NCBI RefSeq assembly: GCF_001598235.1
Contig: NZ_BCYO01000007.1
Location: 124,001-188,000 of the forward strand
Source: Polaromonas jejuensis NBRC 106434
GTDB lineage: Bacteria; Pseudomonadota; Gammaproteobacteria; Burkholderiales; Burkholderiaceae_C
Direction of reading: 5' to 3'
DNA: 64,000 nt
In this document: one piece after another, positions 21,895-34,284 of the stretch
Position numbering within the stretch: the first letter of the stretch is position 1
How the letters are laid out: each line of letters opens with the position of its first letter
Program-made: the position numbers and the translations under genes
Notes under the pieces: model-generated
What the model was told of the DNA's origin: nothing
Database searches by the model: none
What the model saw: the letters and a program-made list of their open reading frames with translations, nothing else

Positions 21895-22533
21895 CTATTT
21901 GGCAGGTTTTTTGGAAGCCCCCAGCTTGGACTCTGTCCCCTTGAGCAGCTTGTTGATGTTCTCGCGATGGCGGTACACCAGCAGTACGGCGATGGCGAAC
22001 ACCACCACCAGAATGCCCTTGTCGACATACCAGGCGGCCCGGTCGCCGAACAGGTAATACAGCGGCGCAAAGACCGCCGCCACAATCGCCGCCAGCGAGG
22101 AGTAACGCGAGAAATACGCCACGATCAGCCAGGTGGCCAACGTCGCCAGGCCCAGCAGCCAGCTGATGCCCAGCAGTACCCCCGCCGCCGTGGCCACGCC
22201 CTTGCCCCCCTTGAACTGAAAAAATACCGGGTACAGATGGCCGAGAAAGGCCGCCAGGCCAACCGCCGCCACGGTACCGTCACCCAGGCCGTAGTCCGCG
22301 CCAAACCACTTGACCAGTACCACGGGCAGCCAGCCTTTCAGGCCATCGAGAAAAAGGGTGGTCACCGCCGCGGCCTTGCTGCCGGAGCGCAGCACGTTGG
22401 TGGCGCCCGGGTTCTTGCTGCCGTAGCTGCGTGGGTCCTTGAGGCCCAAGGCCTTGCTGACAATCACCGCAAATGACAGCGAGCCGAGCAGATAAGCCAG
22501 CAGCGCGGCACCCATCGAGTACAGGTATTCCAA
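21895..22533 (-). CDS. plsY: Acyl-phosphate glycerol-3-phosphate acyltransferase
   Basis: A 212-residue membrane enzyme with about five helices that transfers acyl groups from acyl-phosphate to glycerol-3-phosphate, the first step of phospholipid synthesis. Family motifs are visible: LLGSLSFA at the start, KNPGATNVLRSG (second motif) and FKGGKGVATAAG (glycine-rich third motif). The start is TTG 22533, six bases after GGGAG; translation is continuous from there with no better ATG. Confidence 0.94.
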   Translation of the reverse strand: MEYLYSMGAALLAYLLGSLSFAVIVSKALGLKDPRSYGSKNPGATNVLRSGSKAAAVTTLFLDGLKGWLPVVLVKWFGADYGLGDGTVAAVGLAAFLGHLYPVFFQFKGGKGVATAAGVLLGISWLLGLATLATWLIVAYFSRYSSLAAIVAAVFAPLYYLFGDRAAWYVDKGILVVVFAIAVLLVYRHRENINKLLKGTESKLGASKKPAK

Positions 22534-23165: not shown

Positions 23166-23849
23166 TCAACCCATGATGACCCGTTGGACATCGTTCTGCA
23201 GGCTGCGCAAATGGGCCCGCATGGCGCCCTTGGCGCCCTCCACGTCCTTCTTGCGCAGGGCGTGGATGATTTCGCCGTGTTCGTGGTGGTTTTCTTTCTG
23301 GCGGTGCAGCGGACTGTGCAGGCGGAACAGGCGTGAGTCGTCGCGCAATTGCTGGATCAGCCGGGGCAGCACGACGTTGCCGCTGGCCTGGGCAATGAAG
23401 AGGTGAAAACGGTCGTCGAAGTGCCAGTGCTCGGTTTCGGTATGCTGGCCCGTATTGAGTGCGTCCACCTCTGCAGCCAGGCTCACCAGGTCCGCCTCAT
23501 CGATGCGGTTGATGGCCAGGGCGATCGCCTCGCACTCCAGCAGTTCGCGCGTGCGCATGGAGTCGAAATATTCCTTGGTGCCCACGCTGCGTACCGAATA
23601 CGACCGCGCATCGCGCCGCACCAGCAGGCCTTCTCCGGCCAGCCGACCGAGAGCCTCCCGCATGGGGGTTCGGGAGATACCCAGCTCGTCGGCAATCTTC
23701 CCCTCCAGCAGCGTGCTGCCGGCAGAGATTTTCCGGTCCAGGATCAGCTCGCGCATGCGGATGTAGGCCTGCTCGGACAGGCTGGCCGAGCGCACTTCCA
23801 GTGCTCCCAGCGGGGGCATGGCAGAGGGCGATTCCAGAACGCTCGACAT
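23166..23849 (-). CDS. GntR-family regulator, FCD subfamily
   Basis: A 227-residue regulator. The N-terminal winged helix (about residues 25-85) carries GSTLLEGKIADELGISRTPMREAL. The C-terminal all-helical FCD ligand domain has the metal-binding His set in DDRFHLFIAQASGN and ENHHEHGEIIHAL. It is the last gene of the minus-strand arm of the catabolic unit, 49 bp after the hydantoinase. The palindromic GTATAC site between the two arms (28035-28060) is its most likely operator. Confidence 0.9.
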   Translation of the reverse strand: MSSVLESPSAMPPLGALEVRSASLSEQAYIRMRELILDRKISAGSTLLEGKIADELGISRTPMREALGRLAGEGLLVRRDARSYSVRSVGTKEYFDSMRTRELLECEAIALAINRIDEADLVSLAAEVDALNTGQHTETEHWHFDDRFHLFIAQASGNVVLPRLIQQLRDDSRLFRLHSPLHRQKENHHEHGEIIHALRKKDVEGAKGAMRAHLRSLQNDVQRVIMG

Positions 23850-23898
23850 GTTTGGGTTTACCTTATGGTTGGATGGCTATCTCGCCGGGATTATCTCC

Positions 23899-25353
23899 TT
23901 ACAGCCATTTTGCCAACGGGCTGCCGGCGACCGGCTCACGCGGCCGCAAGCAAGGTTGGAACTGGCCGTCACCCGCCTGGGCCGTGAACACGCCGTCGCG
24001 CCACACCGTGCGCCCGCGTGACAGCGTAAGCGCTGGCCAGCAGCGCAGCGTCTGGCCTTCGTAAGGCGTGTAGTCGCAGGCGCTGTGCAGCATCGCGTGG
24101 GTAAGAGCCTGCTCTTGCCCGGGCTCGAACATGTTCCAGACCACCAGGTCTGCATCACTGCCCACGGCAATAGTGCCCTTCTTGGGATACAGGCCGTACA
24201 GCCGGGCCGGGTTGGTGGAGGTGAGTTCGACAAAGCGGTGGATGTCGATACGCCCGCCCAGCACGCCCGCACTCAACAGCAGCGGCAACCGGGTCTCTAC
24301 CCCCGGAATGCCGTTGGGTACCTGGTTGAACGGCGCCTGTTCCCCAGCCAGGCGTTTGCCCCGCGGGCCGTGGTAATTGAAGGGTGCGTGGTCGGACGAG
24401 ACGATGGTGAACAGGCCATTGGCCAGGCCGTTCCAGATCACCTGCTGGTTGCCCTTGTCGCGTGGTGGCGGGCTGCAGATGCAGCGCATGCCGTGGGCGT
24501 GGTCATCTCCCTGGGGCTGCAAGTCGTCGGCACTCAGGAACAGATACTGCGGGCAGGTCTCGGCATAAATCGGCAGGCCGCGGCCGCGCGCCCAGTGGAT
24601 TTGCTCGACCGCTTCCTGGCCCGACACATGGACGATCAGGATCGGCGTGTCCACCAGCTCGGACAGGGCGATGGCGCGGTGAGTGGCCTCCCGTTCCACG
24701 ACCATGGGCCGGGAGTTGCCGTGGTAGCTGGGCGCGGCCAGCCCGGCGGCCAGCAGATGCTCGGTCAGCCAGCCTATGCAATCGCTGTTCTCGGCATGGA
24801 CCATGGTCATTGCCCCATGCTGGCGCGCCGTGGCCAGCACCTCGATGATCTGCCGGTCGCCCAGCTTCATGTCGTCATAGGTCATGTAGATCTTGAGCGA
24901 GGTGTAGCCCTGGCTGATCAGCCGGGGCAGTTCTTCGCGCGTGACCGCGTGGGTGGCGTCCGACACGATGAGGTGGAAGGCATAGTCGATCACCGCCTTG
25001 CCGTCGGCGCGGCGGTGGTAGTCGTCCACGGCCTCCTGCAGGGAATGGCCTTTTTGCTGCGCCGCAAACGGAATCACCGTGGTGGTGCCGCCGCAGGCCG
25101 CCGACCGGGTGCCGGTGAAGAAGTCGTCGGAAAACACCGCGCCATCGCTGGTGGGCTGGTCCAGGTGCACATGGCCATCCACGCCGCCGGGAGTGACCAG
25201 GCGCCCCAGGGCATCGATCACCTCGCCCGCCTCGCCGGACAGGTCCTTGGCGATGGCGACGATGCGCCCGGCGCGTATGCCGATGTCGGCCTGGTAGCGG
25301 TCGCCCGAGGTGGCGATGTCGGCGTTTTTAACGATCAGATCGTAAGTGTCCAC
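23899..25353 (-). CDS. D-hydantoinase/dihydropyrimidinase-type cyclic amidohydrolase
   Basis: A 484-residue amidohydrolase-superfamily enzyme that opens cyclic imides or diamides such as hydantoins and dihydropyrimidines. The zinc ligands are seen in GGVDGHVHLD (H-x-H, about residues 61-63), the carboxylated Lys in SLKIYMTYDD (about 150), the bridging His residues in VHAENSD and LIVHVSG, and Asp in SSDHAPF. GTG 25353 is preferred as start because AGGAGG precedes it by seven bases; a TTG two codons upstream is too close. It follows the ABC permease by 27 bp. The real substrate is unknown; other cyclic amides are possible. Confidence 0.88.
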   Translation of the reverse strand: MDTYDLIVKNADIATSGDRYQADIGIRAGRIVAIAKDLSGEAGEVIDALGRLVTPGGVDGHVHLDQPTSDGAVFSDDFFTGTRSAACGGTTTVIPFAAQQKGHSLQEAVDDYHRRADGKAVIDYAFHLIVSDATHAVTREELPRLISQGYTSLKIYMTYDDMKLGDRQIIEVLATARQHGAMTMVHAENSDCIGWLTEHLLAAGLAAPSYHGNSRPMVVEREATHRAIALSELVDTPILIVHVSGQEAVEQIHWARGRGLPIYAETCPQYLFLSADDLQPQGDDHAHGMRCICSPPPRDKGNQQVIWNGLANGLFTIVSSDHAPFNYHGPRGKRLAGEQAPFNQVPNGIPGVETRLPLLLSAGVLGGRIDIHRFVELTSTNPARLYGLYPKKGTIAVGSDADLVVWNMFEPGQEQALTHAMLHSACDYTPYEGQTLRCWPALTLSRGRTVWRDGVFTAQAGDGQFQPCLRPREPVAGSPLAKWL

Positions 25354-25380
25354 GTGCAAGCCTCCTATTGCTGACGTTGG

Positions 25381-26106
25381 CTAGCGTTGTTCCATCATCT
25401 CGGCAGCGCGTATCGGCGCCGGCCCTTCGCTGGCATTGCCGTAGGCGCGGCCGTAGTAGGCCTCGATGCGGCGCTGCACAAAGTCCCATATGGATGTGAG
25501 CAGCAGGTAGTACAGCGCCGCGACCAGGAACAGTTCCAACACCATGAACTTTTCCTGGATCAGCACCTGGGTGCGGCGCAGCAGCTCTTCCATGGAAATC
25601 ACCGAAGTCACCGAGGTGGTCTTCAGCAAGCCGTTGATGCTGTTGCCCAGGGTCGGCACGATCAGGCGCATGGCTTGCGGCAGGATGATGTCGCGCAGGG
25701 TCTGGGCCCCGGTGAAGCCCATGGCCCGGGCGGCGTTGGTCTGACCGACTGGAATCGACTGGATGCCGCCCCGTACAATCTCGGCCAGGTAGGCGGCCTC
25801 GTTCAGGATCAGGCCCAGCAGCGCGGATTCGATCACCGAGAACTTCAGGCCCAGTTGCGGAAGGCCGGTGTAGATGATGATCAGCTGCACCATCAGCGGC
25901 GTACCGCGAAACAGCCAGATGTAGAAGTGCGCGGGCGCGTTCAGCCAGCGGTTCCTGGACAGCCGGGCCAGGGCGAGCAGACAGCCCAGCACCAGCCCCC
26001 CGGCAATCGCCGCCAGCGTCAGCCAGACGGTGGTGACCACGCCCCCCAGGATGAACGGGTTCAACAGATATTCAAAAAAGCCCGACCAGCTCCAGCCTTG
26101 TCCCAT
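25381..26106 (-). CDS. Amino-acid-type ABC transporter permease (HisM/GlnP family)
   Basis: A 241-residue inner-membrane permease with about five helices. The family loop that contacts the ATPase is present as AARAMGFTGAQTLRDIILPQA (EAA-like, about residues 142-162). The ATG at 26106 follows AGGAG; an upstream in-frame ATG lacks a ribosome site and would add 15 unrelated residues. It pairs with the binding protein 90 bp upstream and probably with the ATPase of the opposite arm (32370-33104). Confidence 0.93.
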   Translation of the reverse strand: MGQGWSWSGFFEYLLNPFILGGVVTTVWLTLAAIAGGLVLGCLLALARLSRNRWLNAPAHFYIWLFRGTPLMVQLIIIYTGLPQLGLKFSVIESALLGLILNEAAYLAEIVRGGIQSIPVGQTNAARAMGFTGAQTLRDIILPQAMRLIVPTLGNSINGLLKTTSVTSVISMEELLRRTQVLIQEKFMVLELFLVAALYYLLLTSIWDFVQRRIEAYYGRAYGNASEGPAPIRAAEMMEQR

Positions 26107-26195
26107 TGCATTTCTCCTGACTTTCATGCACTTGGGGGCAGAGCACCCCAAGCCATGAAAGTTGTTTCACGTTAAAGGGAATGTGCGGTTGATCT

Positions 26196-27023
26196 TCAGT
26201 TCGCCGGGCCTTTGACGACGATGGCGCCGTCAATCGGCTTCACGCCGTAGCTGGTGAACAGCTTCTGAAAGCTGCCATCGGCGCGCATGTCGTTCAGCAC
26301 CTTGGCCACGGTGTCGGCCAGTGGCTTGTTCTTCAGCGCGACCGCCACGGGGGTGGGGAACAGGCCCGACAACACCCGTTCAAAATCGCCACGCTTCTGG
26401 TATTCGGCGCCGGTGGAGTCGATCGACAACGCCACCTCGACCTGGCCTGCGCGCAGCGACTGGAAGGACATGGCAAAGTTCTCGAAGGTGCGGATGTTCA
26501 TGCCCTTCAAGCCCTTGTCGGTCAGTTGCTTGTCGAGTTCGCGGGTCTTGCGCTCCTCGAAGCCGCCGAGCTCCACGCCAATGGTTTTGCCCGAGAGGTC
26601 TTCCACCTTGCTGATCTTGCCGGGATTGCCCTTGGCGGTGGAGATGCTGATGGCCTGGTCTTCATACGCCAACATCTGCATCAGCTTGGCGCGCTCATCG
26701 GTGTAGAAAATGCCGGTGTTGATCATGTCCCAGCGCCCGGCCTGCAGCCCGGGCACCATGGCCGAAAACTCGATGCGCACGTATTCCGGCTTGAGGCACA
26801 GGCGTTTGGCGATTTCTTCGCCCAGCTCCACCCGCATGCCCTTGAGCGTGCCGGTCTGGTCCACGTACTGCAAGGGCGGCAGCGTGGGGTTGACGGACAT
26901 GGTCAAGGTGCCTTTCTTCACCAGCTGTGACTCGGGCACGCTGTATTTGCAGTCCTGCGCCTGGGCCTGGGTGGCCCCCAAGATGGCGGCGATGGAAACG
27001 AGGGCAAGCGAAAACTTCATCAT
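26196..27023 (-). CDS. Amino-acid-type ABC transporter periplasmic binding protein
   Basis: A 275-residue receptor with a signal peptide (cleavage after AQA, about residue 22). Family 3 binding-protein features include GTLTMSVNPTLPPLQYVD, the G-x-RVELGEEIAKRL segment and GKTIGVELGGFEE. AAGGAA precedes the first ATG. It probably captures an amino acid or a derivative for the permease coded just downstream; the ligand is unknown. Confidence 0.92.
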   Translation of the reverse strand: MMKFSLALVSIAAILGATQAQAQDCKYSVPESQLVKKGTLTMSVNPTLPPLQYVDQTGTLKGMRVELGEEIAKRLCLKPEYVRIEFSAMVPGLQAGRWDMINTGIFYTDERAKLMQMLAYEDQAISISTAKGNPGKISKVEDLSGKTIGVELGGFEERKTRELDKQLTDKGLKGMNIRTFENFAMSFQSLRAGQVEVALSIDSTGAEYQKRGDFERVLSGLFPTPVAVALKNKPLADTVAKVLNDMRADGSFQKLFTSYGVKPIDGAIVVKGPAN

Positions 27024-27085
27024 GGTGGTTCCTTTGGTAGCGGTTGGAGGTGGTTAAGGCAAGGGCGGCGAGATCTGGCAGAGGT

Positions 27086-27982
27086 TCAACGGGAAATCGA
27101 GTTCAGCAGGCCCAGCTTGTCGAGCGCGCGGCGCAGCTCGGCCGCGTCGGCTGCAGGCAGGGGCAGGCGCGGCGCGCGGGGCTTGCCCACCGGCAGACCC
27201 ATCATGTCCAGCGCGTCTTTCGAGGCGGCCACATAGCGGTGGCCGCCGACCCACTTCACGATGGGCAGCATTTTTTGGTACAGGGCCAGGGCCTGGTCCA
27301 TGTCTTTTTCGTCGGCCACCAGCTCGAACAGGCGGGCTGACATGTGTGGAATCAGGTTGGAGCAGACCGCCACCCAGCCCTGGGCGCCCAGCCAGAAAGA
27401 TTCGTAGCCCAGAATGCCGGCAAACACCGTCATGCGGTCGCCGCACAGGTCGATGATGTCGCGCACGCGGGTGACTTCCAGCGTGGACTCCTTGATATAG
27501 CAGCAGTTGTCGATCTGCGCCAGGCGCGCCACGATAGGCGGCGTCAGGTCCACATTGGCCGTGGCCGGATTGTTGTACAGCATGATGGGAATGCTGATCG
27601 CCTCGCCTACCTTGCGGTAGTGCGCAAACAGCTCGTCTTCCGTAGGGCACGAATAGAAAGGCGGAATGACCATCACGCCATCGGCGCCCATCTCCTGCGC
27701 CTCCTTGCTGAGACGGACGCATTCATCGGTCCACTCCGCGCCGGTACCGATCAGCACCGGCACCCGCTTGTTCGCGGTCTTGATGCAGGTGTCGATGACC
27801 AGTTGGCGTTCACCCGGCGTCAGCGACAGGAACTCCCCCGTGCTGCCCAGTGGAATCAGCCCGTGGATGCCCTGCTCTATCTGCCAGTCCACCAGCCGCT
27901 GCAGGGCGGGCACATCGACATGCTTGCCGTCCGCCGTCAAAGGGGTGATCAGGACGGTGTAGGTACCGCGGAATTTGCTCAT
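27086..27982 (-). CDS. Dihydrodipicolinate synthase (DapA)/N-acetylneuraminate lyase-family enzyme
   Basis: A 298-residue class I aldolase-fold enzyme. The Schiff-base Lys is in CCYIKEST (about residue 163), the catalytic Tyr in IMLYNNPATAN, and the pyruvate-binding loop in PLGSTGEFLSL. It need not be DapA itself: catabolic homologues include Delta1-pyrroline-4-hydroxy-2-carboxylate deaminase and keto-deoxy-sugar lyases, and its neighbours (oxidoreductase, hydantoinase, importer) argue for catabolism. The ATG at 27982 was chosen over a GTG four codons upstream because the family pattern SKFRGTYTVLITP begins there. It is the first gene of the minus arm, facing the GTATAC palindrome. Confidence 0.9.
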   Translation of the reverse strand: MSKFRGTYTVLITPLTADGKHVDVPALQRLVDWQIEQGIHGLIPLGSTGEFLSLTPGERQLVIDTCIKTANKRVPVLIGTGAEWTDECVRLSKEAQEMGADGVMVIPPFYSCPTEDELFAHYRKVGEAISIPIMLYNNPATANVDLTPPIVARLAQIDNCCYIKESTLEVTRVRDIIDLCGDRMTVFAGILGYESFWLGAQGWVAVCSNLIPHMSARLFELVADEKDMDQALALYQKMLPIVKWVGGHRYVAASKDALDMMGLPVGKPRAPRLPLPAADAAELRRALDKLGLLNSISR

Positions 27983-28034
27983 GTTTGGCTTCACTTCTGG
28001 TGTGGAAAGCAGTTTTTGCGACTTGCTTTTTTGA

Positions 28035-28060
28035 TGTATACGTGTAGTATACGTATACGT
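28035..28060. promoter_or_regulatory. Candidate GntR/FCD operator between the two catabolic arms
   Basis: The stretch contains GTATACG, then AGTATACGTATACGT. GTATACGTATAC (28047-28058) and ACGTATACGT (28051-28060) are both perfect palindromes. It lies 53 bp upstream of the DapA-like start and about 39 bp upstream of the fused oxidoreductase, where the divergent promoters must lie. Confidence 0.65.
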
Positions 28061-28098
28061 TTCACCAAGTCAAGCCTGTTTACAAATATTCGTCCACC

Positions 28099-31047
28099 AT
28101 GGCGGCGCACCTCACCCACCCCCTGATACCTTGCACCGGCACGCCCCTGCACTTCTCTTACGACGGCCAGGCCGTGCCGGCCTTGGAGGGCGAAACCATT
28201 GCCGCCGCCCTGGCTGCCAGCGGCATCCAGGCCTTGCGCCGCACCCGGGATGGTCAGCGGCGCGGCCTGTACTGCGGCATGGGGGCCTGCCATGAATGCC
28301 TGGTCACCGTGGACGGCCTGGCCAGCCAGCGCGCCTGCATGACCAAGGCGCAAGCCGGGCAAATCGTGCAATCCGCAAGCTCGCCAGTGACAGAGAACGC
28401 CCCCCAGCTGCATCCGCTAACGCCACCGCCCCATGCGGCGCCGGCCGCCATCACGGTTGATGTGCTGGTAATTGGCGCCGGCCCGGCGGGCTTGTCCGCC
28501 GCCATCGCAGCATGCAAAAGCGGTGCCAGCGCCACGGTGCTGGACGAACGCCTGCAGACCGGCGGGCAGTTTTACAAGCCGCTGGCGCTCTCGCACCAAG
28601 CCGCCAAACCAGCTGACAAGCAGTTCGCCGGTGGTCTTGCGCTGACCCGGGAAGCGCAGGCGGCAGGGGTGGATATCCGGCAAAGTGCCCAGGTATGGGC
28701 CGCGTTTTCGGCCACCGAAGTAGGCGCCATCATCGAAGGCCGCGCCACGGTATTCCATTGCAAGCAGTTGGTCATTGCGCCGGGTGCGTACGAGCGGCCC
28801 GTTTCCTTTCCCGGCTGGACCTTGCCTGGCGTGATGAGCACCGGCGCGGGTCAGACCCTGGCCCGCGCCTACCGCGTGTCACCCGGCCAGCGCGTGGTGA
28901 TCGCCGGCAACGGCCCCTTGAACCTGCAACTCGCGGCCGAGTTGCTCGCAGGAGGCGCCAAGGTACTGGCCGTGCTGGAAAGCGCCCCCCGGCCCGGCTT
29001 TGCGCAATGGCGCGAGCTGGTTCAGGCCAGCCGCACCGGGCCGGACTTGCTGCTGGACGGCGCCCGCTACCTGGCGTTACTGCGCCGCCACGGCGTCCCG
29101 GTGCTGTGGGGCCACGCGGTGGTCGCGGCCGAGGGCAAGGACAGCCTGCACACCGTGCATGCGGCGCGGCTCGATGCGCAGGGCCAGGCCGTGGCGGGCA
29201 GCGAACAGCGATTCCAGGCCGACGCCTTGTGTGTGGGCTACGGATTCATCCCCTCCACCGAACTGGCCCGCATGCTGGGCTGCCAGCACCGGTTGGTAGC
29301 GCGCCACCTGGGCTACTTGGCCACCGTGACCGACGAAGACGGGCGCACCAGCATCCCCGGCGTCTTTGTGGTGGGCGACGGCGCCGACCTGGGCGGCTCG
29401 CGCGTGGCATTGGCGCGCGGCAGCTTGGCAGGCTGCGCCGCCGCACGCCAGCTAGGCCATGCCGCACCTCCACCGGCGCACAGCCTGCAGGCGCTGCAGC
29501 GGGGACTGGCCTTCCAGCACGCGCTCTGGTCGCTCTACCAGGCGCCGCCGGTCAGTCTGCGGCAGGTACCCGACGAGACCTTGCTGTGCCGCTGCGAAGA
29601 CATCACGTTCGGCTCGGTACGCGCCCAGATTGCGGCGGGCCGCGACACCCTGGCCGCCATCAAGCGCAACACCCGCCTGGGCATGGGCCGATGCCAGGGC
29701 CGCTACTGCGCCAACGTGGCGGCGCGCCTGGTGCACGAAATCACCGGCCGGCCCAACAGCGTGGAACAGTACTTCGCCCCGCGCGCGCCGACCCGGCCCG
29801 TGCCCGCGGGCGCCCTGGGCTTCGAAAAGCCGGAATGGGGCGGCCACCGCCCGGCCATCACGCCCAATCTGGCCCACCCGGTGGAAGACGCACCGCTGGC
29901 GGAGAAAAAAGTCGATGTGCTGGTGATTGGCGGCGGCGTGCTGGGGGCCAACCTCGCCTACTTTCTCGCGCGCGCAGGCCAGGACGTGCTGGTGGTGGAC
30001 CGCGACGACATCAACCTGCAGGCCTCCGGCGCCAACGCGGGCAGCCTGCATGTGCAACTGCTCTCGTTCGACTTTGGCGCCAAAGCGCAGGAAGGCGGTG
30101 GCCCGGCCGCTGCCACGCTGCCGCTGGGACCGCTGTCGGTCAAGCTGTGGCAACAGATCCAGGAAGATTGCGGCGAAGACCTGGAAGTCAAAATCACCGG
30201 CGGCCTGATGGTGGCCGACAGCGCCCAAGGCATGGCATTCCTGCAGGCCAAGGCGGCGCTGGAGCGCAGCCACGGCATAGAAGCCCATGTGGTGGACGGC
30301 AACGAGTTGCGCCGCCTGTCCCCGGCCTTGTCGCCCAGCTTGCTGGGCGCCGGATGGTGCCCGATGGAAGGCAAGATCAACCCCTTGCGTGCCACCTATG
30401 CGGTGGCGGCCAAGGCGATGCAGCGCGGCGCCCGCTTCATCCGTGGCTGCAACGTGGAGCGGATCGAGCGCCACGCAGGCGATGGCGCGGGCTTCACCGT
30501 GCACACCTCGCGCGGCACGATACGCGCCGGCCGCATCGTCAACGCCAGCGGCGCCTGGTCCAGCGCCGTGGGTGCGATGCTGGGCGTCAAAGTGCCGGTC
30601 AAGGGCGCGCCGCTGCAGATGATCGTGACCGAACCGGCGCCGCCCCTGGTCAGCCACCTGATTGCCCACGCCGACCGCCACCTCAGCATGAAACAGGCGG
30701 CCACCGGCGGCCTCATCATCGGCGGCGGCTGGACCGCGGCGTTTGATGCCGGCATGCGCCTGAACCACGCCGAACGCAGCAGCATCGAAGGCAATCTGTG
30801 GGTGGCCAACCAGGTGCTGCCCGCCCTGGCCGGCCTGCATGTGGTCCGCTGCTGGGCCGGCATGAACGTCAACATCGACGGCGCCCCCATCCTGGGCGAG
30901 GTGCCTGGCGTGCCGGGCTTCTTCAACGCCGTCACCTCGAACGGCTACACCCTGGCGCCGATCGCCGCCAGCCTGGTGGCCGACCTGCTGGTGCGCGGGC
31001 GTACCGACATCGACATCCAACCCTATCGCATCGAACGTTTCAACTAA
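28099..31047 (+). CDS. Three-module fusion: [2Fe-2S] ferredoxin - FAD oxidoreductase with BFD-like cluster - DAO-type FAD oxidoreductase
   Basis: A 982-residue protein. Module 1 (residues 1-100) has a ferredoxin-type C-x4-C-x2-C-x12-C set (Cys59, 64, 67, 80), like HcnA/LhpF-type small subunits. Module 2 (about 119-590) is a pyridine-nucleotide-disulfide-like FAD protein with VIGAGPAGLSA at 124-134 and a second dinucleotide fold, ending in a BFD-type [2Fe-2S] set (CRC near 496 and CQGRYC near 532), like HcnB/OoxA. Module 3 (about 604-982) is a DAO-family oxidoreductase with VIGGGVLGANLAYFLA. In hydrogen cyanide synthase, opine oxidase and D-hydroxyproline dehydrogenase these are separate subunits; here they are one chain. 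It probably oxidises an imported amino acid or secondary amine to an imine. It is the first gene of the plus arm and its stop is 5 bp before the M20 gene. Confidence 0.88.
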   Translation: MAAHLTHPLIPCTGTPLHFSYDGQAVPALEGETIAAALAASGIQALRRTRDGQRRGLYCGMGACHECLVTVDGLASQRACMTKAQAGQIVQSASSPVTENAPQLHPLTPPPHAAPAAITVDVLVIGAGPAGLSAAIAACKSGASATVLDERLQTGGQFYKPLALSHQAAKPADKQFAGGLALTREAQAAGVDIRQSAQVWAAFSATEVGAIIEGRATVFHCKQLVIAPGAYERPVSFPGWTLPGVMSTGAGQTLARAYRVSPGQRVVIAGNGPLNLQLAAELLAGGAKVLAVLESAPRPGFAQWRELVQASRTGPDLLLDGARYLALLRRHGVPVLWGHAVVAAEGKDSLHTVHAARLDAQGQAVAGSEQRFQADALCVGYGFIPSTELARMLGCQHRLVARHLGYLATVTDEDGRTSIPGVFVVGDGADLGGSRVALARGSLAGCAAARQLGHAAPPPAHSLQALQRGLAFQHALWSLYQAPPVSLRQVPDETLLCRCEDITFGSVRAQIAAGRDTLAAIKRNTRLGMGRCQGRYCANVAARLVHEITGRPNSVEQYFAPRAPTRPVPAGALGFEKPEWGGHRPAITPNLAHPVEDAPLAEKKVDVLVIGGGVLGANLAYFLARAGQDVLVVDRDDINLQASGANAGSLHVQLLSFDFGAKAQEGGGPAAATLPLGPLSVKLWQQIQEDCGEDLEVKITGGLMVADSAQGMAFLQAKAALERSHGIEAHVVDGNELRRLSPALSPSLLGAGWCPMEGKINPLRATYAVAAKAMQRGARFIRGCNVERIERHAGDGAGFTVHTSRGTIRAGRIVNASGAWSSAVGAMLGVKVPVKGAPLQMIVTEPAPPLVSHLIAHADRHLSMKQAATGGLIIGGGWTAAFDAGMRLNHAERSSIEGNLWVANQVLPALAGLHVVRCWAGMNVNIDGAPILGEVPGVPGFFNAVTSNGYTLAPIAASLVADLLVRGRTDIDIQPYRIERFN

Positions 31048-31051
31048 GCCC

Positions 31052-32311
31052 ATGACAACTATGAAAACCCAGACCCCGCCATCCGCCAAAGACGCCATGC
31101 GTGGCTTCATAGAGCAGCATTTTGAAGAGCAGGTCCGCGCCCTCGCCCGCCTGGTGCAATGCCCGTCCGACAACCCGCCCGGCGACTGCGCACCGCATGC
31201 GCTGGTCACGGCGCAGTGGCTCGCGGAGATGGGCTTTGCGGTGGAGCGCCATGCGGTGCCGCAGGCCCTGGCGCAGCAGCACGGCATGCAGAGTGTCACC
31301 AACCTGATCGTGCGGGAAAAGTTCGGCGACGGTGGCCCGGTGGTGGCCATGAACGCCCATGGCGATGTGGTTCCCCCGGGCGAGGGCTGGACCGCCAGCC
31401 CCTACAGCGGCGAGATCCGCGACGGCTGGCTGTACGGCCGCGGCGCGGCCGTGTCCAAGTCGGACTTCACCACCTACGCCTACGCCTTGCGCGCGCTGAA
31501 ATCCCTCTCCGGCGTGGCGCTCAAGGGCCAGGTGGAGCTGCACTTCACCTACGACGAGGAAACCGGCGGCATGACCGGCCCGCACTGGATCCTGCAGCAA
31601 GGGCTGTCCAAGCCCGACTACGTGCTGTCGGCGGCCTTCTCGCACCATGTGGTGACCGCGCACAACGGCTGCCTGCACCTGGAAATCACGCTGCGCGGCC
31701 GATCCGCCCACGCCGCCTGGCCCGAGACCGGCAGCGACGCCATCGAGGCCAGCGTGCCCTTGCTGGCCGCGCTGTACCGCTACCGCGACAGCCTGGCCGA
31801 TCGCCCGTCCCGCACCCCCGGCATCACCCACCCGACCCTGGTGGTCGGGCTGGTCAAGGGCGGCATCAACACCAATGTCGTGCCCGATATGGTGACCCTG
31901 CGCGTCGACCGCCGCATCGTGCCCGAGGAAGTGCCGGAGCAGGTCGAAGCCGAGTTGCGCGAGGTGGTTGCCGCGTCGGTGCGCCAGCTCGCCGGCATCC
32001 AGGTCGAGGTCACGCAAATCCTGCTGGCCCGGCCGTTCAAGCCCGTGGCCGGCGCGCAGGCCCTCACCGATCTGGTGTGCCGCGAAGGCAGCGCCGTGCT
32101 GGGCACACCGGTGACACCGATAGGCGTACCGCTGTACACCGATGCCCGGCTCTACAGCGAAGCCGGCATTCCCACCGTGATGTACGGCGCCGGCCCGGCC
32201 ACGCTGCTGGCAGCCAACGGCCACCGCGCCGATGAGCGAGTGCCGCTGCTGGAACTGCAACAGGCCACGCAGGTGGTGGCCAACGTCCTGCTGGAACTGC
32301 TGACCGGCTGA
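31052..32311 (+). CDS. M20-family metallohydrolase (ArgE/DapE type)
   Basis: A 419-residue di-zinc deacylase/peptidase. Visible ligands are [12 protein letters not shown] (His-x-Asp), [11 protein letters not shown] (bridging Asp replaced by a Ser/Lys-rich version; family usually GRGxxDMK), YDEETGG (catalytic Glu pair) and H in [10 protein letters not shown] of the lid domain. It resembles ArgE/DapE rather than N-carbamoylases. It probably deacylates an amino acid derivative in the same pathway as the hydantoinase. The start ATG at 31052 almost touches the previous gene, so the two are translationally linked. Confidence 0.85.
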
Positions 32312-32369
32312 AGCCGCAGCTGCACCGCAGGCCCCCTCAACCGCTCAGGACCGCACAGAAAGTATTGAA

Positions 32370-33104
32370 ATGATCAACATCAACAATGTCAGCAAATGGT
32401 ATGGCAGCTTCCAGGTGCTGAGCGACTGCAGCACCCGGATCCGCAAGGGCGAGGTGGTGGTGGTGTGCGGCCCGTCGGGCTCGGGCAAATCCACCCTCAT
32501 CAAATGCGTCAACGCGCTGGAGTCGATCCAGCAAGGCGACATCGTGGTGGACGGTGTCTCGGTCACCAACCCCAAGATCAACCTCAACCAGCTGCGCTCG
32601 CGCGTCGGCATGGTGTTCCAGCATTTCGAGCTGTTCCCGCACCTGTCGATCACGGAGAACCTCACCTTGCCGCAGATCCGGGTCCTCAAACGCAGCGAGA
32701 GCGAAGCCCGGCGCAAGGCCCTGGTCTTACTGGAACGTGTCGGCCTGTCGGCCCATGCGCACAAATTTCCGGCCCAGCTCTCGGGCGGCCAGCAGCAACG
32801 GGTGGCGATTGCCCGGGCCCTGGCTATGGACCCCATCGCCATGCTGTTTGACGAACCCACCTCGGCGCTGGACCCCGAGATGGTCAACGAAGTGCTCGAC
32901 GTCATGGTGCAGCTCGCCAGCGACGGCATGACCATGATGTGCGTGACCCACGAAATGGGCTTTGCACGCAAGGTGGCGCACCGCGTCATCTTCATGGACC
33001 GGGGTGCGATTGTGGAGGACTGCGACAAGGAATCGTTCTTTGGCAGCCCCCACGCCCGCAGCGAACGGGCACAGCAGTTTCTATCCAAGATACTTCAGCA
33101 TTGA
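32370..33104 (+). CDS. Amino-acid-type ABC transporter ATP-binding protein (GlnQ/HisP family)
   Basis: A 244-residue ATPase with all motifs: Walker [11 protein letters not shown] (residues 34-43), Q-loop [10 protein letters not shown], signature [17 protein letters not shown], Walker [13 protein letters not shown] and H-loop VTHEMGFAR. The polar amino-acid importer type is clear. It closes the plus arm; its permease and receptor lie on the minus arm 6 kb away, so the transporter genes are split across the divergent unit. Confidence 0.94.
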
Positions 33105-33219: not shown

Positions 33220-34284
33220 TTACAGGGCCGGGTCGCGTGCTTCCCAGCGGATCTTGTCAATCTCGGCCAGCACTTCAGGTGACAGGGTGGTGCCGTGAGC
33301 ATCCAGGTCTTCATCGAGTTGCGCCACGGAAGTCACTCCGATGATGGTGCTGGCCACCTGCCATTTGGTGTAGCAAAACGCCAGCGCCAGCTGCGAGGGC
33401 GTGAGGCCATGCGCACGCGCCAGGGCGTTGTAGCGCCGCGCGGCGGCCAGCGCCTCGGGACGGCCCCAGCGCTGCATGCGCACCGATTCAAACTTGGCGA
33501 TGCGCGCATCTTTGGGCGCATCGGGGCCGTCAATGCCCGACTGGTCGTATTTGCCGGTCAGCAGGCCAAAGGCCAGCGGCGAATAAGCCAGCAGCGAGAC
33601 GCCCAGGCGGTGCATGGTTTCGTCCAGGCCGTTTTCCACCGTGCGGTTGACCAGGCAATAGGGGTTTTGCACGGTGGCCACGCGCGGCAGGCCGTGCTGC
33701 TCGGCCAGGCGCACAAACTCGTGCACGCCATAAGGCGTTTCATTGGACAGGCCTATGGCGCGCACCTTGCCCGCCCTGACGAGGCCGGCCAGCGCTTCGA
33801 GCTGCTGATGAATCGACGACACCGCCTTGTCCTTGGCCGGGTCGAAGTACAAGGCGCCAAACGCCGGCACATGGCGTGCCGGCCAGTGAATCTGGTAGAG
33901 GTCAATCACATCGGTCTTCAGGCGCTTGAGGCTGTCATTGCAGGCGCCCACGATGTCTGCGGCGGTGAGGTCGGTGCTGCCGTTGCGAATCCAGGGCATG
34001 CCGCGCGCCGGGCCGGCCACCTTGCTGGCCAGCACCAGCTGGCCGCGGGCGGAGGGATGTTTGGCGAACCAGTTGCCGAGTATGGTCTCGGTGGCGCCAA
34101 AGGTTTCGGCCCGTGCCGGCACCGAATACATCTCGGCGGTGTCGAGAAAATTGATGCCCCGCTCCAGCGAGCGGTCGAGTATGCGATGGGCAGTGGCTTC
34201 ATCGACCTGCTCGCCAAAAGTCATGGTGCCCAGGCAAATGGGCGTGACGTGCAAATCACTGCTGCCGAGTTGAACTTTATTCAT
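33220..34284 (-). CDS. Aldo/keto reductase, Tas-like
   Basis: A 354-residue NADP(H)-dependent TIM-barrel oxidoreductase. Family pieces are LGTMTFGEQV at the start, the catalytic Tyr/Asp region NFLDTAEMYSVPARAETFGATE, DLYQIHWPAR with the catalytic His, and the coenzyme-binding IIGVTSVAQLDEDL near the C-terminus. Close relatives (Tas, YghZ) act on small aldehydes; the native substrate is unknown. It is a stand-alone gene. Confidence 0.9.
   Translation of the reverse strand: MNKVQLGSSDLHVTPICLGTMTFGEQVDEATAHRILDRSLERGINFLDTAEMYSVPARAETFGATETILGNWFAKHPSARGQLVLASKVAGPARGMPWIRNGSTDLTAADIVGACNDSLKRLKTDVIDLYQIHWPARHVPAFGALYFDPAKDKAVSSIHQQLEALAGLVRAGKVRAIGLSNETPYGVHEFVRLAEQHGLPRVATVQNPYCLVNRTVENGLDETMHRLGVSLLAYSPLAFGLLTGKYDQSGIDGPDAPKDARIAKFESVRMQRWGRPEALAAARRYNALARAHGLTPSQLALAFCYTKWQVASTIIGVTSVAQLDEDLDAHGTTLSPEVLAEIDKIRWEARDPAL

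Follow-up and report, generated by a model that had tools for sequence, protein, structure and literature searches.

A putative import-and-breakdown unit for an amino compound, with a predicted shared operator, in Polaromonas jejuensis

Gene content and predicted operator of the locus

The 64,000-nucleotide stretch of Polaromonas jejuensis NBRC 106434 considered here (contig NZ_BCYO01000007.1, positions 124,001 to 188,000; hereafter the window, which lies on contig C7 of a 5.1 Mb genome) contains two divergent arms of genes which an earlier account, made from the letters alone, described as one catabolic unit for an amino compound. All eight genes are present in the 64-kb window at the positions given in this original prediction, and their named domains are confirmed by Pfam, such that the eight-gene divergent unit is real (Table 1). 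Outwards from the central spacer, the minus arm holds a DapA-family lyase, a periplasmic solute-binding protein (SBP), a permease, a hydantoinase (HYD) and a regulator with both GntR and FCD domains (Pfam). The plus arm holds, in order, a fused 2Fe-2S/FAD/DAO oxidoreductase (OX), an M20-family protein and an ABC ATPase. Family profiles and fold search place the SBP, the permease and the ATPase in the polar amino acid importer class.

The two arms are separated by a spacer of only 116 bp (27983-28098), which runs from the ATG of the DapA-like gene at 27982 to that of OX at 28099. The shared promoter region that had been proposed for the arms takes the form of a spacer with a conserved GTATAC element, the predicted operator. 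Indeed, the window has just three GTATAC boxes in its 64 kb, all of them in this spacer, and the two window matches to GTATAC-N5-GTATAC with at most two mismatches both fall there as well (shuffle mean 0.11, with 1 of 100 shuffles reaching 2). The same element recurs elsewhere: among 68 divergent DapA/OX spacers, the window's included, with ends placed from protein matches, 63 contain GTATAC, in 155 occurrences, as compared with a mean of 3.0 and a maximum of 8 spacers in 100 dinucleotide shuffles. The five spacers lacking it include those of Phreatobacter (L069), Prosthecomicrobium (L079), Belnapia (L082) and Dankookia (L085).

At the level of whole genomes, the exact GTATAC-N5-GTATAC site occurs once in the P. 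jejuensis genome, at 28036-28052 of the window, and once in seven of eight other genomes, each time in the spacer of the locus, with the controls giving none in all eight; the eighth genome (V. paradoxus, L034) lacks an exact site, although its spacer carries a variant. With the operator single-copy in this way, no second regulon site is apparent. A one-mismatch site found once more in the P. jejuensis genome (C9:81969) was considered as a further member of the regulon and is taken as chance, since the reversed control pattern gave three matches at the same setting. The GntR protein is the presumed binder of the operator. A promoter-like -10 element on the minus strand (28051-28046) overlaps the operator; the single one found compares with a shuffle mean of 1.2, in other words no enrichment.

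Table 1. Features of the divergent unit, in coordinates of the window
Feature	Position	Strand	Basis
GntR/FCD transcriptional regulator, 227 aa	23166..23849	-	Pfam GntR 3.2e-14, FCD 6.1e-23
Hydantoinase/dihydropyrimidinase (HYD), 486 aa, TTG start as called	23899..25359	-	TIGR02033, PRK13404
Amino-acid-type ABC permease	25381..26106	-	BPD_transp_1 1.3e-25
Periplasmic solute-binding protein (SBP), 275 aa	26196..27023	-	SBP_bac_3 1.2e-28
DapA-like class I lyase, 298 aa	27086..27982	-	DHDPS 3e-60, K164, Y136
Predicted operator, GTATAC boxes at 28036, 28047, 28053	28036..28058		motif counts
Fused oxidoreductase OX, 982 aa	28099..31047	+	Pfam, DAO 6e-69
M20-fold protein, 419 aa	31052..32311	+	Pfam Peptidase_M20, M20_dimer
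ABC ATPase of amino-acid importer, 244 aa	32370..33104	+	ABC_tran 3.8e-35

Recurrence of the unit in other genomes

Relatives of the locus were found by scanning named genomes with an OX alignment, from which the best 80 of 141 relatives were kept, giving 77 loci. Counts are drawn from the 58 loci with at least 9 kb on each side of OX, the other 19 being excluded, and presence at a locus was called by bit-score thresholds chosen by the analyst. On this basis the SBP, the permease and the DapA-like gene are each kept in 57 of 58 loci and the GntR gene in 53, followed by HYD (48), the ATPase (38) and M20 (33). Less frequent are a gene for DUF3830 (16), a second M20 type, M20b (5), and a phosphotriesterase-family (PTE) gene (3). 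The core of the unit is import, oxidation and a Schiff-base lyase, and HYD and the M20-like protein are recurrent accessories at the locus. The accessories do not assort freely: all 33 loci with M20 have HYD and none has DUF3830, and PTE is seen only in HYD-less loci among the 58. Seven of the 58, that of Variovorax ginsengisoli (L042) among them, are without HYD, M20, M20b, DUF3830 and PTE altogether.

Members of three classes of Proteobacteria carry the set in its divergent layout. The hosts include Rhodoferax, Variovorax, Pseudacidovorax, Xenophilus, Ramlibacter, Caballeronia and Paraburkholderia, and further Azospirillum, Jiella, Martelella, Belnapia, Prosthecomicrobium, Erwinia and Pantoea. 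The closest named locus is that of Rhodoferax sp. OV413, where OX is 91% identical. Comparison of neighbourhoods through the 982-residue protein, which the original prediction had put forward as its check, thus finds the same set in dozens of genomes, and the homologues do cluster elsewhere. Conservation of gene set, layout and operator likewise supports the proposal of one catabolic unit that imports and degrades an amino compound. Within the genus the unit seems to be sporadic, since a search of 149 genomes, P. jejuensis included, listed OX matches of at least 60% identity only in its own genome and in G030, G018 and G023 of the same genus, many of the genomes being incomplete.

Several variants of the layout deserve mention. 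In 20 of the 58 loci (L023, L024, L029, L037, L039 and others) no ABC ATPase is found near OX, and the importer may borrow an ATPase at such places. Plasmid records of Azospirillum, Aureimonas and Agrobacterium vitis hold the set without M20 and with an annotated dihydropyrimidinase and DUF3830, the genes of the Aureimonas and A. vitis loci all running in one direction. DUF3830 genes stand near HYD or OX in, for example, L098 (6551-6967), L099, L100, L058, L088 and L097, and a search of the P. jejuensis genome for DUF3830 gave no match. In a metagenome-assembled genome of Acidiferrobacteraceae (L090, 1-12925), genes for an amidohydrolase, a PTE-family protein, a CoA-transferase, an enoyl-CoA hydratase and an M20 protein surround HYD, DapA and OX; here PTE and HYD occur together, in a locus which is outside the 58 for its short right flank.

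Active sites of the individual proteins

From sequence, HYD is a canonical D-hydantoinase/dihydropyrimidinase with an intact active site. It passes the TIGR02033 D-hydantoinase model with 531 bits (cut-off 393) and PRK13404 with 761 (cut-off 647), and its residues 11-467 align with the D-hydantoinase of PDB entry 1yny, such that H63, H65, K156, Y161, H188, H244, S296, D323 and N349 fall on metal-site and substrate-site positions. Each of these residues is conserved in at least 62 of 63 rows, with one gapped row and a single Y161D as the only departures. Two further HYD copies of 65% identity mean that the locus copy is not the only one in the P. jejuensis genome. One of them lies on contig C9 (L184, 8020-12393), where an Asp/Glu/hydantoin racemase family gene comes next and an MFS gene is near, which makes a separate hydantoin-type locus. 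Moreover, all ten searched genomes with HYD-less loci carry a HYD-family gene elsewhere (38-65% identity), that of V. ginsengisoli being a 65% copy on the same contig, roughly 20-25 kb off. On a maximum-likelihood tree of 46 chosen HYD rows (25 in-locus, 21 elsewhere), the in-locus label must have been gained or lost four times, all four changes being forced by starred branches; since shuffled labels require 15.4 on average, the label is clustered on the tree as well. The placement of four long rows (L065, L090, L140, L144) is unsure.

The M20 homologue presents a different case. M20A enzymes bind their zinc ions through two His and two Glu residues, with an Asp bridging the metals (PMC11511702). 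The window protein, aligned with 37 relatives to give 38 rows, keeps H103, E169/E170 and H391, and the HxD, DEETGG and NGH motifs are kept in every row. At the place of the bridging Asp, by contrast with this canonical set, stands V134 in four of four PDB alignments, and A194 takes the place of a Glu ligand in three of four, the fourth having a gap; both the Val and the Ala are found in 38 of 38 rows. In other words, the ligand set of an M20A deacylase is incomplete, and the M20 fold with its dimerisation domain is present. Of the deacylase originally proposed, then, the fold stands, and the two missing canonical ligands make the label unsafe. The M20 protein of the Acidiferrobacteraceae locus has Asn and Ala at the V134 and A194 places, and the M20b proteins of L058 and L072 keep the bridging Asp and lack the Glu pair.

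An AlphaFold2 model of the M20 homologue (17 rows, pLDDT 84.6) has the M20 fold, with 3pfo as its best match. Two parts of the metal site are modelled with lower confidence, residues 101-120 at about 60-64 and residues 389-393 at less than 50. The second-best fold is that of 5-nitroanthranilate aminohydrolase, a likeness of the model which is suggestive of unusual M20 chemistry, the comparison being one of folds. The protein is 60-95% identical in 16 relatives and so, as judged from its sequence, is well conserved yet not a standard di-zinc deacylase.

OX consists of a 2Fe-2S module (15-93), an FAD/NAD-type module (about 121-433), Fer2_BFD (496-546) and DAO (606-963), all from Pfam, and its kin are the alpha and beta chains of sarcosine oxidase and the A and B chains of P. 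horikoshii 1y56. R917 of the DAO domain, a residue with a role in carboxylate binding, is kept in 16 of 16 aligned family rows. With these complexes OX shares the DAO catalytic module and the FAD and 2Fe-2S electron-transfer modules; it differs from sarcosine- and proline-type complexes in being one chain of 982 residues, genetically coupled to a DapA-type lyase. HcnABC and OoxAB are dehydrogenases of the same general type, built from DAO, FAD and 2Fe-2S parts. OX has the module set of an HcnABC-type dehydrogenase, but not its separate subunits.

The Schiff-base Lys expected of the DapA-like lyase is K164, which is accompanied by Y136 and a GSTGE motif. Thr141 occupies the position of Arg138 of E. 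coli DapA, a residue that has a role in that enzyme and is a mark of dihydrodipicolinate synthase; the housekeeping-like DapA of P. jejuensis itself (L106) has Arg there. On the DHDPS profile the lyase reaches 204 bits, far below the 330 bits of another copy in the genome. Across 2485 locus pairs, distances between the DapA proteins and distances between the OX proteins are closely correlated (r=0.96). The nearest split relative among the stretches compared lies on a Roseicitreum plasmid (Roseicitreum antarcticum, L101, 3884-6006), where divergent DAO (42%) and DapA-family (41%) genes adjoin glycine dehydrogenase halves and a sugar-type importer. The likeness is in the divergent pair; the Roseicitreum genes differ in having separate subunits, a sugar-type ABC importer, the glycine dehydrogenase halves and an IclR-type regulator, and no hydantoinase is annotated in the stretch shown.

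The SBP model (AlphaFold2, 24 rows, pLDDT 90.5) has the amino-acid SBP fold. All 72 rows have R111, F106 and D202, and I201 is found in 70, with Leu in the other two. R111 is the carboxylate Arg of the family and is retained, which fits a substrate that is likely to be carboxylated. GlnH and the ancestral AncQR carry Thr and Asp where the SBP has F106 and I201, and other SBPs compared vary there; with the invariant D202 lying one residue off I201, the ammonium site has probably, though not certainly, been lost. The site residues are the same in loci with and without HYD, which suggests one common transported compound. OccJ, SocA and NocT, which bind opines, are among the close folds, and no claim of opine binding is drawn from them because ordinary amino-acid SBPs score equally well. 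The Phe-x4-Arg motif resembled an ectoine-binding motif, and an ectoine-type substrate was dropped when two EhuB sequences proved to have Ser at the aligned place.

Proposed pathway and alternatives

The best explanation of the locus is a self-contained import-and-breakdown unit for one amino compound, governed by one operator, in which oxidation would precede the lyase step; on the sequence evidence above we give this reading a probability of roughly 0.55. We infer the order of the pathway, which regulator acts on the operator and what kind of products arise. The GntR protein, on GTATAC-N5-GTATAC, would repress both arms until substrate or product releases it. The ABC importer would bring in a small carboxylated nitrogen compound, possibly N-blocked or cyclic. 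In strains that have it, HYD would open a cyclic amide or ureide to an N-blocked acid of the N-carbamoyl type, ring opening thereby broadening the range of usable substrate forms, and the M20-like protein, or the DUF3830 and PTE-family proteins in other lineages, may aid unblocking or act otherwise. OX would then oxidise a D- or N-substituted amino acid at the C-N bond beside its carboxylate and hand the electrons on towards respiration, and the DapA-like enzyme would form a Schiff base with the 2-oxo or imino acid, followed by cleavage or elimination to pyruvate-like products, which would require no more enzymes of this regulon.

In this regard, the overall interpretation of the original prediction holds for one unit with one control site and fails for its linear sequence of ring opening, deacylation, oxidation and lyase, two of whose steps fall to accessory proteins, one of them ligand-poor. 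Searches of the literature on the gene set, DUF3830 and related terms gave no paper recognisably about such an operon. The locus is of interest as a conserved unit of widespread soil- and root-associated bacteria with a clear predicted operator, through which its inducer could be sought by reporter. It also gives a definite metabolic context to two proteins of unclear chemistry, DUF3830 and the ligand-poor M20 homologue. Caution is in order with annotation: the M20 gene should not be called a deacylase, nor the DapA gene assigned to lysine biosynthesis.

Several points weigh against this proposal. The loci are anchored on OX and many come from Variovorax, so the counts are not independent, and the correlation of DapA and OX distances also reflects shared phylogeny. 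The DapA-like protein passes the dapA cut-off of TIGR00674, albeit narrowly (209.3 against 206.15). The argument about the ammonium site of the SBP hangs on an alignment choice of one residue. The HYD-family genes elsewhere in genomes with HYD-less loci mean that HYD is accessory at the locus only. Finally, no recognisable decarbamoylase is present in the unit.

A bolder reading, which is less likely than not, is that the pathway is new and serves a widespread cyclic nitrogen compound of plants or soil, with the M20 protein of altered metal site (DUF3830 elsewhere) performing a new unblocking or ring-handling step between HYD and OX. Two further alternatives, opine breakdown and classical hydantoin use, both overlap the best explanation, the first being a substrate-specific version of it. 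Under the opine alternative, the unit would degrade opines or N-carboxyalkyl-amino acids, including ring-closed arginine sugar-damage products, with OX acting on the secondary amine and HYD on the ring. Many of the loci come from root- or plant-associated genera; the relatives of OX include amine-oxidising enzymes of the sarcosine type, the opine binders OccJ, SocA and NocT are close SBP folds, and the residues that normally bind ammonium are missing from the aligned positions of the SBP. Against this, those fold scores are no better than the scores of ordinary amino-acid SBPs, and opine pathways are not known to need a DapA-type lyase or a hydantoinase. The alternative is doubtful.

Hydantoin utilisation systems consist of a hydantoinase, a racemase and a carbamoylase. 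Were the unit one of these, a D-5-substituted hydantoin would pass through the N-carbamoyl-D-amino acid and the D-amino acid to a 2-oxo acid, the DapA-like enzyme dealing with a special side chain. The canonical D-hydantoinase/dihydropyrimidinase is a feature in common, and the stereochemistry is consistent with a DAO domain of the D-amino-acid type. Against this, Pfam shows neither a hydantoin racemase nor a carbamoylase family among the eight genes (nor, for the M20 protein, do the best 25 of its 55 NCBIfam matches). At the locus, HYD is absent in 10 of 58 cases and is accessory to an oxidation-lyase core, and P. jejuensis already has, on C9, a HYD copy accompanied by a hydantoin racemase family gene. 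We regard classical hydantoin use as unlikely.

Still less probable is an epimerase-free route of the hydroxyproline type, in which OX would act on a D-hydroxyproline-like imino acid, the DapA-like protein would be a pyrroline-4-hydroxy-2-carboxylate deaminase and HYD and M20 would free blocked forms. The published Streptomyces operon (PMC6608401) combines a GntR regulator with an epimerase, a dehydrogenase of three subunits and a DapA-type deaminase, and the enzyme classes of the unit do match those of the Streptomyces and Pseudomonas operons described there. The Lhp operons (S. coelicolor SCO6289-6293; PMC6608401) share with the unit the 2Fe-2S/FAD/DAO dehydrogenase, the DapA-family lyase and the GntR regulator; here, in contrast, no epimerase gene is found, the modules are fused in one chain whose DAO domain is distant from racemase-adjacent subunits, and a hydantoinase, an M20-like protein and an amino-acid ABC importer are added.

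The comparison was extended to five racemase-containing stretches (L124-L127 and L129), whose hydroxyproline identity is itself a reading of gene content: L124 has racemase, DAO, 2Fe-2S, FAD and DapA genes in a row, and L129, which yielded no DAO or DapA match, was dropped. The DapA-like protein is 32-36% identical to the DapA-type genes of the remaining four and shares with them YNNP, KES and a PRLPL-like tail, but the housekeeping-like DapA of P. jejuensis, at 33%, is as near to it as three of those four. The DAO domain of OX, moreover, is only 23-30% identical to the four racemase-adjacent subunits (41-112 bits), as compared with 42% and 233 bits for the Roseicitreum gene. Searches for the proline-racemase family (Pro_racemase, PF05544) gave no match in the P. 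jejuensis genome, and one racemase query, from L124, gave none across the 77 loci. The absence of a racemase-family match and the distance of the DAO domain together disfavour the hydroxyproline route; probably, therefore, as the original prediction had it and as far as sequence allows, this is not the standard one, and pyrroline-4-hydroxy-2-carboxylate is not the most likely substrate of the DapA-like enzyme. A 2-oxoglutarate semialdehyde dehydrogenase is not among the eight genes by Pfam, no genome-wide search for it having been made.

That two unrelated operons face each other by chance has only the differing accessory gene sets in its favour and is rejected as very improbable, given a layout that recurs across classes, core genes kept in 57 of 58 loci, a conserved GTATAC element in 63 of 68 spacers and distances that co-vary.

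Some minor features of the locus remain. An antisense open frame of 632 codons (29452-31350, minus strand) lies over OX and M20; such frames are common at high GC and it is not counted as a gene. The permease frame extends over 25381-26151, opening at a TTG at 26151, and the ATG at 26106 is the probable start, the Rhodoferax relative beginning at the Met that matches it. The genes that flank the unit on both sides belong to unrelated families; examples are the glycerol-3-phosphate acyltransferase gene to its left (21895-22533) and the aldo/keto reductase gene to its right (33220-34284).

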